From the NCBI GenBank assembly GCA_017510335.1, contig JAFWNM010000003.1, positions 1-49,155 on the forward strand: 49,155 bases of DNA, written 5' to 3'. The notes beneath the pieces are model-generated. The model did no database searches. It was given only the letters and a program-made list of their open reading frames with translations, and was not told the origin of the DNA. Every line of letters starts with the position of its first letter. The first letter of the stretch is position 1. The translations under genes were made by a program, and so were the position numbers. The stretch comes from Paracoccaceae bacterium. GTDB taxonomy: Bacteria; Pseudomonadota; Alphaproteobacteria; Rhodobacterales; Rhodobacteraceae. Positions 4,362 to 43,630 of the stretch are shown one piece after another.

Positions 4362-4540
4362 GGGCGAACCTTTGGCTAGAGGGATATGCCAGCAGTATAG
4401 CTGTGCCCTGGCAGAAGAAACGGTGCTGCGATCTGGTGCGCGGCAGGGGATTGTTCCGAATTCGGTGTGTCTTTCCGATGATCCGTCTGGGGATCGGGGG
4501 TGTGGGCGCGGGCATTGCGGGCGCCTTTGGCGTGAAGGGG

Positions 4541-4760
4541 GCGTTGGCGCTTGGATCAAGCCCGCGCACTCGGCGGGCCGGGGTCTGCCGATCCGGCGTC
4601 CTAGGGGAAGCGTATTATCCAGGCGGCGTATTCCTGACGTCAAAGGCCTGCACTTCCCGCAGGTCATCGGCAGGCTTAGGGACGGCCCGCCGATGGCGTG
4701 GGCCACCTGCGGTCTTGATTCCGCGCTTTGGGGGACTGCTTCCCGCCAGCCAGGTCCAGC
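4541..4760 (-). repeat. dispersed structured 3' element, copy A (full length)
   Basis: Read on the minus strand, this stretch aligns along most of its length with 20481-20690. Shared blocks are the GCGGAATCAAGACCGCAGG region, the ATCGGCGGGCCG / GCCTGCCGAT hairpin (4666-4694), TCAGGAATACGCCGCC, GGCAGACCCCGGCCCGCCG and GCGGGCTTGATCCAAGC. It starts about 19 bases after the stop of the Lrp/AsnC gene, in that gene's orientation, and fills most of the 417-base gap to gabD. Confidence 0.75.
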
Positions 4761-13073: not shown

Positions 13074-13467
13074 CTGATAGGACCCTGCTTGCAGCCACAT
13101 GCGCCAGACAATCAGGAATGCCAGCAGTATTCAACGCGGATTTGGCGCTAGGGTTCCTTTCGGTGTGTGTTCAGGCGGATGATGTGCCAGCTGTAAGAAC
13201 GCGCCATCGGCGAGCCAGAACGGGAACTGGTTTTGCGTGTTCAAGACGTCAGGGGGCGCAAGCGTCTGGAAGGGCCGCAAGACTTGGCAGACTTTCGCGT
13301 GAAGGACTGGGATGAAGCCTGCGCTGTCGCAAGGCTACGGGATGGCCCGCGGAGTGTGCGGCGGCCTGCGGCCTTTGCTCCGCACCGGGGCATTCCTTCA
13401 ACGTGCCCTTCAGGCCAGAAAGCAGCCAGTCCTTCCATGCCACCTGACCTGATACGGCCAAAAAAAA
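13074..13467. other. non-coding gap between the SLC13 gene and katG
   Basis: No credible gene on either strand. It contains the SLC13 gene's upstream region, repeat copy B (13331-13416) and, at the right edge, the katG terminator. The translations found here are low-complexity shadows. Confidence 0.6.
13331..13416 (-). repeat. dispersed structured 3' element, copy B (5' part only)
   Basis: On the minus strand it shares with copy C the block GGCCTGAAGG..AC.TT..GGAATGCCC and then 31 identical bases from GGTGCGG to CCGCAC (13356-13386 on the plus strand). Similarity fades after the GCGGGCC.TCCCG block, so the 3' half is missing or diverged. It lies 116 bases after the katG stop, beyond katG's terminator, in katG's orientation. 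Confidence 0.7.
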
Positions 13468-19152: not shown

Positions 19153-20361
19153 ATGTCACGCGCACGCATCGCTTCGGGAACAGCGCTGGCCAGTGGTCTG
19201 GTGGCGGTCATTGTCTGGGCATTGTGGCCCGCCCCTGTGGCGGTCGATATGGGCATTGTCACCCAAGGCCCGATGCAGGTGACCCTTCTGGCTGAAGGGG
19301 TGACGCGGGTGCGCGACCCCTACACCATTACGGCACCCATTTCGGGCGCGACCACCCGCGCGCCGGTCCAGACGGGCGACCGCGTCGAGCAGGGCAAGAC
19401 GGTGGTGGCTGTCATCCAGCCCGCAGACCCCGCCTTGATGGATGCCCGCACCCGCGCGCAGGCCCAGGCCGCCGTGGCCGAGGCGCAGGCCGCCGTTCAA
19501 CTGGCGCAAACCAATGTTGCGCGCGCGTCCTCCAGTCTGGAGCATGCCCAAAGCCAGCTGGAGCGCGGACGCGGGCTTGCGCGCGCCGGCACCATTCCCC
19601 AGCGCATGCTCGAAGATCTGGAACAGGCTGTCAGAACGGCCGAACAGGTGCTGACCAGCGCACAGGCCGAACATGACCTGAGCGAAGCTGCCTTGATGCG
19701 CGCACGCGCCCAGCTTCTGGAACCCGGCCCCAGCTTGTTGCAAAACGGGCAGGCCGGGGAATGCTGTGTGCAGATCATCGCCCCGCTGACGGGCACTGTG
19801 CTGGATGTGCCCGACCGGAACGCGCGGCAGGTCGCGGCGGGCACGCCGTTGCTGAGCATTGGCGATCTGGCCGATCTGGAAATAGAAACCGATCTGTTGT
19901 CATCGGACGCTGTGCGCATCCGGCCTGGCGCATTGGCCAGTGTCGAACGCTGGGGGGGCGATGATGTGTTGCGCGCGCGTGTGCGCCGCGTGGAGCCGGC
20001 AGGGTTTACACGGGTGTCGGCGCTGGGCATTGAGGAACAGCGCGTGCGGGTGCAGATTGATCTGCTGACCCCGCCTGATGCGCGCCAGGGCTTGGGCGAC
20101 CAGTTCCGCGTGATGGTGCGCATTGTGGTTTGGGACGCAGAAAATGTGGTGCAACTGCCCCAAAGCGCCTTGTTCCGCCATGACGGAAACTGGGCCGTGT
20201 TTCGCAACAGCAATGGACGCGCCGAACTTGTGACTGTGACGCTGGGAAGGCGCAATGACCACACCGCCGAGGTGCTTGGTGGCGTGGTGCCCGATGATCA
20301 GGTTGTGGTGTTCCCCGCAAGCGGACTGGAAGACGGGGCGCGCATTACGCCGCGTTCTTGA
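19153..20361 (+). CDS. periplasmic adaptor (HlyD/MacA-type membrane fusion protein)
   Basis: 402 residues: one N-terminal membrane anchor (about 7-25), a split biotinyl-lipoyl domain (TITAPISGATTRAPVQTGD and IIAPLTGTVLDVPDRN), a long alanine/glutamine-rich helical hairpin (about 95-185), a beta-barrel and a membrane-proximal domain. AAGGAAGG precedes the start. With the two genes upstream it would form a MacAB-like tripartite exporter. No outer-membrane channel gene is nearby, so it would borrow a TolC-type partner or release substrate into the periplasm. Confidence 0.88.
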   Translation: MSRARIASGTALASGLVAVIVWALWPAPVAVDMGIVTQGPMQVTLLAEGVTRVRDPYTITAPISGATTRAPVQTGDRVEQGKTVVAVIQPADPALMDARTRAQAQAAVAEAQAAVQLAQTNVARASSSLEHAQSQLERGRGLARAGTIPQRMLEDLEQAVRTAEQVLTSAQAEHDLSEAALMRARAQLLEPGPSLLQNGQAGECCVQIIAPLTGTVLDVPDRNARQVAAGTPLLSIGDLADLEIETDLLSSDAVRIRPGALASVERWGGDDVLRARVRRVEPAGFTRVSALGIEEQRVRVQIDLLTPPDARQGLGDQFRVMVRIVVWDAENVVQLPQSALFRHDGNWAVFRNSNGRAELVTVTLGRRNDHTAEVLGGVVPDDQVVVFPASGLEDGARITPRS

Positions 20362-20826
20362 AGCGGCTGCGCGCCCCGGTCCCGGATGCGCGCCTGAGGG
20401 AACCCACTTGATGCCCGCCGGTATGAATGCTGAAAACCGGTGCCCGCGTCCTGCACCATGCTTGTGGTTTGGTTGGTGGTGGCCTGAAGGGGACATTGGG
20501 GAATGCCCAAGGTGCGGAGCAAAGGCCGCAGGCCGCCGCACCATCGGCGGGCCGTCCCGCGGCCTGCCGATTTCGCCAGTTCCACGCCAAGCCTTTGAAC
20601 TCAGGAGTATGCCGCCTGCATAAATTGCGCCCCTAAAACGTGGGACCGGCAGACCCCGGCCCGCCGCTGGTGCGGGCTTGATCCAAGCTCGAATGTCCGC
20701 TTCAGGTCAAACACACTGCTTCGCCTTGTGCCGGCCACGTCCCCCACAAAACGGCAAAGGGGGCGCGCCAGCCTTTACAGCCGACACGCCCCCCTCGCAA
20801 AGCTACAGGGAAAAAGGGCTGTGCCC
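20362..20826. other. 465-base gap between the adaptor gene and pnp
   Basis: No credible gene. It holds repeat copy C (20481-20690). The remainder is GC-rich with no matched pair of arms and T tract, so no terminator for pnp or the adaptor gene is confidently placed. Confidence 0.6.
20481..20690 (+). repeat. dispersed structured 3' element, copy C (full length)
   Basis: Reference copy. Block 1 GGCCTGAAGG; stem 1 GGTGCGG (20511-20517) with CCGCACC (20536-20542) enclosing AAGGCCGCAGGCC; stem 2 ATCGGCGGGCCG (20543-20554), loop TCCCG, CGGCCTGCCGAT (20560-20571), 11 of 12 paired; TCAGGAGTATGCCGCCTG; then GCCCGC / GCGGGC enclosing a 7-base loop and GATCCAAGC. It begins 120 bases after the adaptor stop, in the sense orientation of that gene. 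Confidence 0.8.
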
Positions 20827-22959
20827 TCAGTCCTCGGATTTCTCCGCAGCAAGTTCTTCGCCCGTGGCCTGATCCACCATTTTCATGGCCAGCCGGACCT
20901 TGCCGCGCTCGTCAAAGCCCAGAAGCTTGACCTTCACTTCCTGACCTTCCTTCAGCACGTCGGACGGATGGTTCAGACGACGGTTTTCGATCTGGCTGAC
21001 ATGCACCAGACCATCGCGCTTGCCAAAGAAATTCACGAACGCGCCGAAATCCACCAGTTTGACAACCTTGCCGGTATAGATCTTGCCGATTTCGGGTTCT
21101 GCCACGATGGAATAGATCATGTCATAGGCTGCCTTGATGGCCGCCTGATCGTTGGATGCGATCTTGATCATGCCGTCATCATTGATGTCGACCTTCGCCC
21201 CTGATGTTTCCACGATTTCGCGGATGACCTTGCCGCCGGACCCGATGACTTCGCGAATTTTGTCGGTCGGGATCTGCATGGTTTCGATCTTGGGCGCATA
21301 CTGGCTGAAGCTGCCTGCTTCGGTCAGCGCTTTGGACATTTCGCCCAGGATGTGCATACGCCCGTCCTTGGCTTGGGCCAGCGCCTGTTCCATGATCTCA
21401 AACGTGATACCGGCCACCTTGATGTCCATCTGCAGGCTGGTAATGCCCGCTTCGGTGCCCGCAACCTTGAAATCCATGTCGCCAAGGTGGTCTTCGTCGC
21501 CCAGAATGTCGGTCAGGACAGCGAATTTGCCGTCATTTTCCAAAATCAGGCCCATCGCAACACCCGCGACCGGCGCTTTCAGCGGCACGCCTGCATCCAT
21601 CATCGACAGCGACCCGCCGCACACAGTGGCCATGGAGCTGGAGCCGTTCGATTCCGTGATCTCGGACACGATGCGGATGGTATAGGGGAAGTCGGTTGCC
21701 GCAGGCAGCACGGCTTGCAGCGCGCGCCATGCCAGCTTGCCATGCCCCACTTCGCGCCGACCGGGAGGGCCGAAACGCCCCACTTCGCCAACCGAATAGG
21801 GGGGGAAGTTGTAGTGCAACAGGAAGTTGGATTTGCTGGTGCCGGTCAGCGCGTCGATGAACTGTTCGTCATCGCCCGTGCCCAGCGTGGTGACACATAG
21901 CGCCTGCGTTTCACCGCGGGTGAACAGCGAAGACCCGTGCGTGCGTGGCAACAGGCCCGTTTCCGAAACGATCTGGCGCACTGTCTTGGTGTCGCGTCCG
22001 TCAACGCGGGGTTCCCCGTTGATGATCGCACCGCGCAGGATGGAGGATTCCAGCTTCTTGAGCGCTGCACCCAGGTTTTCATCGGCAAGCTGGTCTTCGC
22101 TCAGCGTGGCCTTGATGGCGTCGCGGGCGGCGGAAATGGCGGCAACGCGTTCCTGCTTGTCACGCAGCGCGAAGGCTTCGCGCATCTGCGCCTCGCCTGC
22201 GGCCTTGATGGCGGCATACAGATCGGCGTAATCGGGCGCCTGGAAATTGAACGGTTCTTTTGCGGCGTCTTCGGCCAGATCAATGATCAGGTCGATGACG
22301 GGCTGATAGCTTTCATGGGCAAATTTCACTGCACCCAGCATTTCAGCTTCGGACAGTTCATAGGCTTCTGATTCGACCATCATCACGGCATCTTTTGTGC
22401 CCGCGACAACCAGATCAAGGCGCTGTTCAGCATTCTCGCGCAGCTTTTCCATGTCCTGGCATTCAGGGTTCAGGACATATTCACCATTGGAGTAGCCCAC
22501 ACGCGCGGCCGCGATCGGCCCCATGAACGGCACCCCCGAAATGGTCAGCGCCGCAGAGGCCGCAATCAGCGCCACGACATCGGGTTCATTGACCAGATCA
22601 TGGGACAGCACAGTGCAGATGACCAGAACTTCGTTCTTGAACCCATCGACAAACAGCGGGCGCAGGGGGCGGTCAATCAGGCGCGATGTCAGCGTTTCCT
22701 TGTCGGAAGGGCGCGCTTCGCGTTTCAGGAACCCGCCGGGAACCTTGCCTGCAGCATAATATTTTTCAACGTAATGCACGGTCAGCGGAAAGAAATCCTG
22801 ACCGGGTTTCGCCGCTTTGGCGAAGGTGACATTGGCCATGACACTGGTTTCGCCCAGCGTGGCAATGACAGACCCATCGGCCTGACGGGCAATCTTGCCT
22901 GTTTCCAGGGTCAGCGTTTCTTCGCCCCACTGGATGGATTTTTTAGTGATGTTGAACAT
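20827..22959 (-). CDS. pnp: polyribonucleotide nucleotidyltransferase (PNPase)
   Basis: 710 residues, full length. Two RNase PH-like domains (N-terminal core from about 8; second core with [11 protein letters not shown] and [19 protein letters not shown]), the helical linker between them, a KH domain with [10 protein letters not shown] (about 565-575) and a C-terminal S1 domain ([14 protein letters not shown]). It degrades RNA 3' to 5' with phosphate and is part of RNA turnover. ATG 22959 follows GAGGA at good spacing. rpsO, its usual upstream neighbour, is not here. Confidence 0.97.
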
Positions 22960-23937: not shown

Positions 23938-24574
23938 GTCCACTGTCCCCTATCGGGCAAATTTTATATAAGTTTTCGGGAACTAATGCTGAACTGGTTA
24001 CAAAATTCGTCGTTAAGGCCCTATTAGGGAATTGTGAAGGTTTTATCAACCATGACGTATAAAATCGTAGCAATCGCCCAAAAAACGGTCGCAGCGTCTT
24101 TCTGCAGCGCAGAAAAACACCACTTGCCGTGCGGCCTTCGGGACCGCTGACCTGGGCCGTGGCCATCGGCAGGGGTGCCGTCTTGCGGGCAGTTCGGGAC
24201 GGACGAATCACCCGATGGGTGTGACTGGGTGACCTGAAGGCGTGTCCGCACCACGCGCTAAGGGTTGCCATGACCGGGAAGATCGTTTGGCGCATGTGGC
24301 TTGCAGGGGTTTCTGGCTTGTGGGCGTCGTTGAAGGAGTGACCTGGCGCGGAACCAAGGCGCGCTTGTGCGCCGCCGCGCGGCACCCGACCACCCTGCGG
24401 GGCGGGCGCTATCGATCGTTCAGCGCCCTTCAGGCCCCTGCCTGCATCGCTGTGCCGCATGCTACAGGCGGGCTTGGGTGTAACTGCGCCGGTCCCCGAA
24501 ATGCAAAAGGCCCCGGAAATTGTCCGGGGCCTTTTACTTTCGTGCGGCGGGGTGGGACGATGGCGCGTCCCCCA
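23938..24574. other. 637-base gap between the sugar transferase and DUF1127 genes
   Basis: No convincing gene. 23950-24070 is strikingly AT-rich for this genome and is probably the promoter region of the sugar transferase gene; it includes the palindrome CCCTATTAGGG. 24100-24480 is GC-rich and holds short frames only. The right end contains the DUF1127 terminator. No loop of the CcsR small-RNA type (CUYYCCUCC), known to follow one DUF1127 gene in Rhodobacter, was seen. Confidence 0.5.
24505..24535 (-). terminator. intrinsic terminator of the DUF1127 gene
   Basis: AAAAGGCCCCGGA (24505-24517), loop AATTG, TCCGGGGCCTTTT (24523-24535): a perfect 13-bp stem with T-rich ends on either strand. It is 40 bases past the DUF1127 stop. 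Confidence 0.9.
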
Positions 24575-43382: not shown

Positions 43383-43460
43383 GGCTGCGCGCGGCGTGCC
43401 ATCCGGGCCAGATGGTGCCCGTAACGGGATGACAGGATGGCCCACACGCGGGGCGGGGGG

Positions 43461-43580
43461 CTGAAGCAGTTACCCAAGGCGCGGAATCAAGGCCGCAGGT
43501 GGCCCGCGCCATCGGCGGGCCGGTCCGCGGCCTGCCGATGGGCTGAAGGTGTGCCAGACATTTTCAGTCAGGACTATGCC
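43461..43580 (+). repeat. dispersed structured 3' element, copy D
   Basis: Stem 1 GGCGCGG (43478-43484) with CCGCGCC (43504-43510) encloses AAGGCCGCAGGTGG. Stem 2 is ATCGGCGGGCCG (43511-43522), loop GTCCG, CGGCCTGCCGAT (43528-43539). TCAGGACTATGCC follows at 43567. Compared with copy C, the stem 1 T-A pair has become C-G on both sides. Sense orientation to the Lrp gene just upstream. Confidence 0.78.
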
Positions 43581-43630
43581 CCGCTTCAGGCCAAACCCCG
43601 CATTGTCCAATCGCGTAGCTTGTTGCGCAT

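Follow-up and report, generated by a model that had tools for sequence, protein, structure and literature searches.

We describe a structured repeat that is interspersed, with patchy occurrence, in the genomes of one bacterial family, by its named carriers the Rhodobacteraceae, and in which a single polar hairpin occurs as a head-to-head pair. Copies are found between convergent genes more often than element-free gaps are. From location and polarity, we tentatively favor, with slightly less than even confidence, a REPIN/BIME-like repeat that is retained at the 3´ ends of genes, with hairpins that would form the ends of messages. The window, a 49,155 nt stretch of a Paracoccaceae bacterium genome (contig JAFWNM010000003.1), contains four copies, A to D, that had been noticed in an initial annotation.

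Copies of the repeat in the window and the family

Alignment and repeat comparison recovered a common element at all four window sites. In the repeat comparison within the window, A and D (118 nt, 78% identity), B and C (116 nt, 75% identity) and A and C (82 nt, 80% identity) match as inverted pairs, placing A and B on the minus strand and C and D on the plus strand. Copy C also folds more stably than all of its shuffles (0 of 200 equally stable; z = -4.47 and -3.61 for the two strands). The matches of 75-80% over these lengths, together with the folding of C, confirmed that the dispersed element is real and not due to chance. As the initial annotation stated, the copies do not lie within genes, since no called gene contains any of the four. 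Copy A is flanked by an AsnC-type regulator gene (Pfam) and a gene that, from its translation, we take to be aldehyde dehydrogenase-like; copy B by a presumed katG-like gene, also named from its translation, and a CitMHS-type permease gene (permease by Pfam); and copy D by convergent AsnC-type regulator and MTTB genes (Pfam).

Table 1. Positions of the four copies in the window and of the parts of copy C. R2 is a covariance model of the unit.
Feature	Position	Strand	Basis
Copy C, full element with outer inverted repeats	20480..20711	+	Ends common to copies with unrelated flanks
Copy C, 171-nt conserved core	20508..20678	+	Model R2, 154 bits
Copy C, left outer inverted repeat GGCCTGAAGGGGACATT	20481..20497	+	17-mer pattern, ≤2 mismatches
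Copy C, right outer inverted repeat	20692..20708	-	One mismatch to pattern
Copy C, hairpin 1 with inner hairpin	20512..20541	+	Covariation, helices 1 and 2
Copy C, hairpin 2, plus-strand polarity	20543..20571	+	Covariation; G-U:A-C 60:1, 85 copies
Copy C, CATAAA in middle	20619..20624	+	ATAAA nearly invariant, alignments A5 and A7
Copy C, hairpin 3, inverted counterpart of hairpin 2	20645..20668	-	Better minus-strand folding; G-U:A-C 8:85
Copy A, long form	4525..4742	-	R2 core 4559-4730, 125.5 bits
Copy B, short form	13302..13418	-	R2 13316-13389, 46 bits
Copy D, shortened form	43460..43592	+	R2 43475-43621, 74.3 bits

The unit is a structured core of ~171 nt, which in the lineage of this genome is enclosed by ~17-bp inverted repeats (GGCCTGAAGSGGACRTT) to give ~232 bp. 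Within the core, hairpin 1 (GCGCGGAATCAAGGCCGCAGGCCGCCGCGC) is followed by hairpin 2 (ATCGCCGGGCCG...CGGCGAT), a variable middle of ~75 nt with a near-invariant ATAAA (alignments A5 and A7, the truncated copy L079 being left out of A5), and hairpin 3. The sequence blocks noted initially are borne out: CAA(A)G.CCGCAGG falls in hairpin 1, ATCGGC..GCCGAT corresponds to hairpin 2, and TCAGGA.TAYGCC sits in the less conserved middle. The length of the unit is nearly fixed, being 165-175 nt in 18 of the 19 loci read from relatives (L079 is truncated) and 167-175 nt among the strong R2 matches listed. A further weak R2 match in the window (24342-24431, plus strand; 24.3 bits, E 0.0005) may be a remnant copy or chance.

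Long copies in the own genome share the ends TTGGCCTGAAGSGGACRTT ... AAYGTCCSCTTCAGGCCAA and have unrelated flanks. The outer 17-mer, with up to 2 mismatches, occurs at 53 places in this genome compared to 1 for a reversed control. As an exact degenerate pattern, it was found at 12 places in the relative G021 and at none in the copy-rich relatives G022 and G055; it is not evident in other genera, and a look-alike of its inner part adjoins copy L086. The inner tetramers of the outer repeat vary (GAAG, TTTT, GTTG), and the left and right ends of a copy need not carry the same one, as at L005 and L017. A selected stem formed by the outer repeats was rejected given that the variants differ within a copy (GGCCTTTTTCGGACATT on the left and GGCCTGAAGCGGACATT on the right of L005). 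A target duplication was not clear among 36 copies, for which several bounds are rough and short forms are included: the mean longest repeat was 1.25 compared to 0.92 for mismatched flanks, with ≥4 bases in 5 of the 36.

The initial annotation counted four copies; the sites stand, and the number was too low. BLAST with copy C matched at least 42 places in the own genome, which comprises 3.6 Mb in 43 contigs (40 of 89 candidates scored); 8 of these places extend to the end of a contig. A 64-nt core model gave at least 48 matches (150 of 6685 candidates scored). Both counts are floors, as A, B and D are missing among the 42 places listed and A among the 48 matches listed. The core model had matches in 38 of 148 relatives, a set that counts the own genome, and these span 15 of 111 genera; R2 matched 129 of 296 family genomes (128 of 295 genera), with 9 candidates scored per genome, such that per-genome counts are floors. 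In an even, class-wide sample, R2 matched 2 of 289 genomes, namely the own genome and one other of the same family. Among nine carriers searched, one holds at least 150 copies, with all 150 scored candidates matching, and the other eight gave 84, 47, 34, 31, 20, 19, 18 and 9 matches. Carriers include Roseinatronobacter sp. HJB301, Roseinatronobacter sp. S2, Roseibaca sp. Y0-43 and a Rhodobacteraceae MAG, as well as plasmids of Pseudosulfitobacter, Salipiger and Pacificitalea. On the Pacificitalea plasmid, three tandem copies ~203 bp apart occupy one convergent gap (L228 19789-20363).

The window has no Rfam match at gathering score, and the two matches obtained up to E 1 in eight loci of relatives are below the gathering score, lie outside the element and are only chance; a known Rfam family was therefore rejected. 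Phage origin also was not supported, as neither copy C nor the L196 copy matched any of 50,697 phage records. No description of this repeat was found among the literature listings searched; a term search of the main text of PMC2267715 did not return Rhodobacter, and the alphaproteobacteria named in one passage of it are Brucella and Rickettsia. Where the initial annotation had allowed for a repeat restricted to four places, devoid of structural support or already described, model searches of the own genome and its relatives returned many copies beyond those four, and neither of the other two outcomes was found.

Covariation and polarity of the hairpins

Hairpins 1 and 2 covary across genera. 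In an alignment of 20 rows, 97.7% of cells are paired and 7 pairs are changed on both sides, with a covariation score of 0.195 versus 0.070 in shuffles (0 of 500 as high). None of the 500 shuffles was as high for four of five measures, the fifth being further pair types (10 of 500), and controls with slid helices had 30-43% of cells paired and scores of 0.011-0.030. The signal emerged across genera; RNAalifold on the own-genome copies showed little covariation (3 pairs). Covariation is likewise seen for an alternative pairing, in which the hairpin 2 arms and the 3´ arm of hairpin 1 pair with the region of hairpin 3 (88.3% paired, 11 pairs, 0 of 500 shuffles; 111 of 500 for further pair types). 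For the plus strand, a local hairpin 3 was rejected: 80% of its cells are paired, but 398 of 500 shuffles match its both-side changes.

The departures from Watson-Crick pairing are polar. Across 85 copies (84 distinct; short forms, B, D and contig-edge copies left out), hairpin 2 on the left has 60 G-U and 1 A-C departures, hairpin 3 on the right has 8 G-U and 85 A-C, and hairpin 1 is without polarity (6 G-U versus 5 A-C). Folding energies favor the minus strand for hairpin 3 in 80 of the 85 copies and the plus strand for hairpin 2 in 54 of the 85, although per genome the advantage of hairpin 2 (23:16) does not go beyond that of a control from the middle (25:13). Since hairpin 3 is the inverted counterpart of hairpin 2, these ratios reflect one polarity and not two independent ones: the element contains two head-to-head copies of a single polar hairpin.

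Bias in base changes is by itself a poor explanation of the 60:1 ratio, given that G>A does occur in hairpin 2 (17, compared to 22 C>T), while the left unpaired columns (C>T 13, G>A 2) point to some bias in that direction. For hairpin 3, the right unpaired columns have no excess of G>A (17, compared to 33 C>T) that would account for the 8:85 ratio. The polarity could stem from single-stranded DNA instead of RNA. E. coli BIMEs contain gyrase or nucleoid-protein sites that relieve supercoils between convergent genes, and a palindromic element in this position might likewise be a DNA-level site of such a kind. We consider this improbable, as a role of double-stranded DNA binding gives no reason to expect departures from Watson-Crick pairing that are nearly all G-U on one strand.

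Position at gene ends and turnover of sites

In the own genome, 35 copies were entered with their flanks, and the 32 that could be classed comprise 25 convergent, 7 tandem and 0 divergent sites. Loci in other genomes gave 21 convergent, 8 tandem and 4 divergent (n = 33). The excess is weaker in further genera, with 9 convergent, 10 tandem and 2 divergent (n = 21, the classed loci among the 22 left after L231, L234, L235 and L245, from genomes already used, were removed from 26). By comparison, element-free gaps of ≥100 bp, taken from the window and from Pseudosulfitobacter, Pacificitalea and Roseinatronobacter plasmid stretches, include 7 convergent, 32 tandem and 23 divergent (n = 62). Against these 7 of 62 gaps, the convergent excess has Fisher p values of 1.3e-10 for the own genome, 2e-7 for other genomes and 0.003 for further genera. 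When element gaps were kept in, 22 of 92 gaps of ≥100 bp were convergent, for somewhat different stretches. With the deposited annotation of the plasmid stretches and one S2 place, 7 of 10 element gaps are convergent and 0 divergent. Two of the plasmid-stretch matches overlap a gene end, by ~11 and ~37 nt. The gene caller, trained in this work, predicted 35 genes for a stretch that has 35 annotated features; inspection by eye showed that it had missed one small gene and called one extra. The core spans the entire gap from stop codon to stop codon at three loci: L196 (ABC1 and TonB-type genes) and L207 (TauE and PIN genes), where 4-5 nt are left at either side and the flanking genes have Pfam matches, and L237, with 7 and 7 nt.

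Among the 81 classed copies, tandem sites are evenly oriented (13 co-directional, 12 anti-directional). A strong fold and a near-invariant unpaired motif could fit a family of trans-acting small RNAs, which the initial annotation had listed as an option, but we regard this as very improbable: there is no fixed orientation to neighboring genes, copies reach at least 150 in one genome, and the gaps at L196 and L207, with ~5 nt to either side of the core, leave no promoter room outside the element.

Location and polarity are what suggest to us the REPIN/BIME-like reading. Copies would have spread by some transposition or copying process and been retained where transcripts arriving from either side read a hairpin unit in its folding orientation. 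The folded hairpin would then be the 3´ end of the message, either ending transcription or blocking 3´ exonucleases, and between convergent genes one copy could serve both messages. A stronger version, that the repeat is a portable, two-sided 3´-end cassette across the family, with one polar RNA hairpin per strand, so that converging genes would share their 3´ ends and some sites would be the whole stop-to-stop gap, is a conjecture to which we give clearly less than even confidence.

Three observations weaken the 3´-end role. No run of ≥4 T directly follows hairpin 2 or 3 in alignments A5 and A7, which excludes an ordinary intrinsic terminator; of 15 terminator-like sites, none is within the cores of B or C. 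For pnp and the katG-like gene in the window, terminator-like hairpins already are present between the stop codon and the element. Finally, the half of the unit that would not be read is not relaxed in tandem sites, such that selection site by site was not seen: hairpin 3 mismatches were 0.92 at co-directional versus 0.75 at anti-directional sites (p = 0.74), and for hairpin 2 the same comparison gave p = 0.25.

Sites differ between relatives. In the three relatives that could be compared (G012, G018 and G021), site A is occupied and site B is empty by gap length; a fourth genome searched, G010, does not cover these two sites. Alignment of sites B and X did not reach single-base precision, and an insertion junction was therefore not obtained. 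BLAST with C located an element downstream of pnp in 2 of the pnp loci of 29 relatives (G018 and G021). In G025, G035, G019 and G029, an element is upstream and not downstream of pnp (L113, L115, L116 and L122). Copies at the same site share 73-78% (A) and 77-83% (C) identity in local alignments, compared to 82.7% to A and 98.8% to C for the best own-genome copies in global alignments; copies thus seem to turn over or convert while sites are stable.

Gene order breaks beside A and D in one relative. In G012, the alignment stops at copy A, and the neighbors of copy D are on separate contigs (L170 and L173), where both remain adjacent to an element, which may have mediated a change of gene order. 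In the region of window 19153-22959, pnp is inverted relative to an HlyD-type gene between the own genome and G018 (L111), and oppositely oriented element sequences border pnp on its two sides in G018, as would result if inverted copies had recombined and flipped it. The repeat may thereby serve as a substrate for rearrangement.

The main rival to a role at 3´ ends is a purely selfish, non-autonomous mobile element tolerated there, moved in trans by a transposase that needs single-stranded DNA hairpins or the outer repeats. We hold it to be a serious possibility, short of probable. It would account for the at least 150 copies in one genome, the presence of near-identical copies (98.8% to C) at separate sites, the outer inverted repeats in the own lineage, the empty site B, the tandem copies and the lack of relaxation by site context; according to a passage of PMC1525189, moreover, REPs often occur between convergent genes. 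On the other side, no autonomous partner in the form of facing outer repeats 0.5-5 kb apart was seen by eye among the 53 pattern-fitting places of the own genome, which also has no Y1 transposase match; no clear target duplication was seen; and the outer repeat, as an exact degenerate pattern, was not found in two copy-rich relatives, while the core is kept across genera.

Comparison with known repeats

A repeat that is found in 129 of 296 family genomes sampled and has no Rfam gathering match in the window or the eight loci of relatives would change the annotation of intergenic regions in this group. With it, one can ask directly if repeats persist between convergent genes because they make 3´ ends or are just tolerated there. 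Head-to-head repeats at gene ends are known from Neisseria and Haemophilus, where inverted DNA uptake sequences are used as terminators; the element described here differs in being much longer and in having three hairpins without a U-run.

MITEs, ERIC and RUP are short, intergenic elements with outer inverted repeats, as is the element in its own lineage, where terminal inverted repeats were found (53 places compared to 1 for the control). In contrast to these, its internal structure covaries across genera, there is no target duplication, and no outer repeats were found in two copy-rich relatives. An ordinary MITE, moved by a DDE transposase, is not supported, given the absence of target duplication and of a visible partner.

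REPINs and BIMEs are polar, imperfect palindromes in inverted pairs, intergenic and present in many copies. The element departs from them in its ~171-nt unit, its third hairpin, the conserved ATAAA in the middle and the lack of a RAYT (Y1) match in its own genome. The Y1 transposase family PF01797 has no match in the own genome, G007, G010, G012, G018 or G022, a fragment under the cut-off in G021, and matches in two element carriers, G052 and G081. A RAYT-driven REP was rejected by this one test, the own genome having no Y1 transposase match. Even so, the REP-like or 3´-processing reading in the initial annotation fits best: like REPINs and BIMEs, the element is an inverted pair of polar palindromic hairpins, intergenic, present in many copies and often placed between convergent genes.
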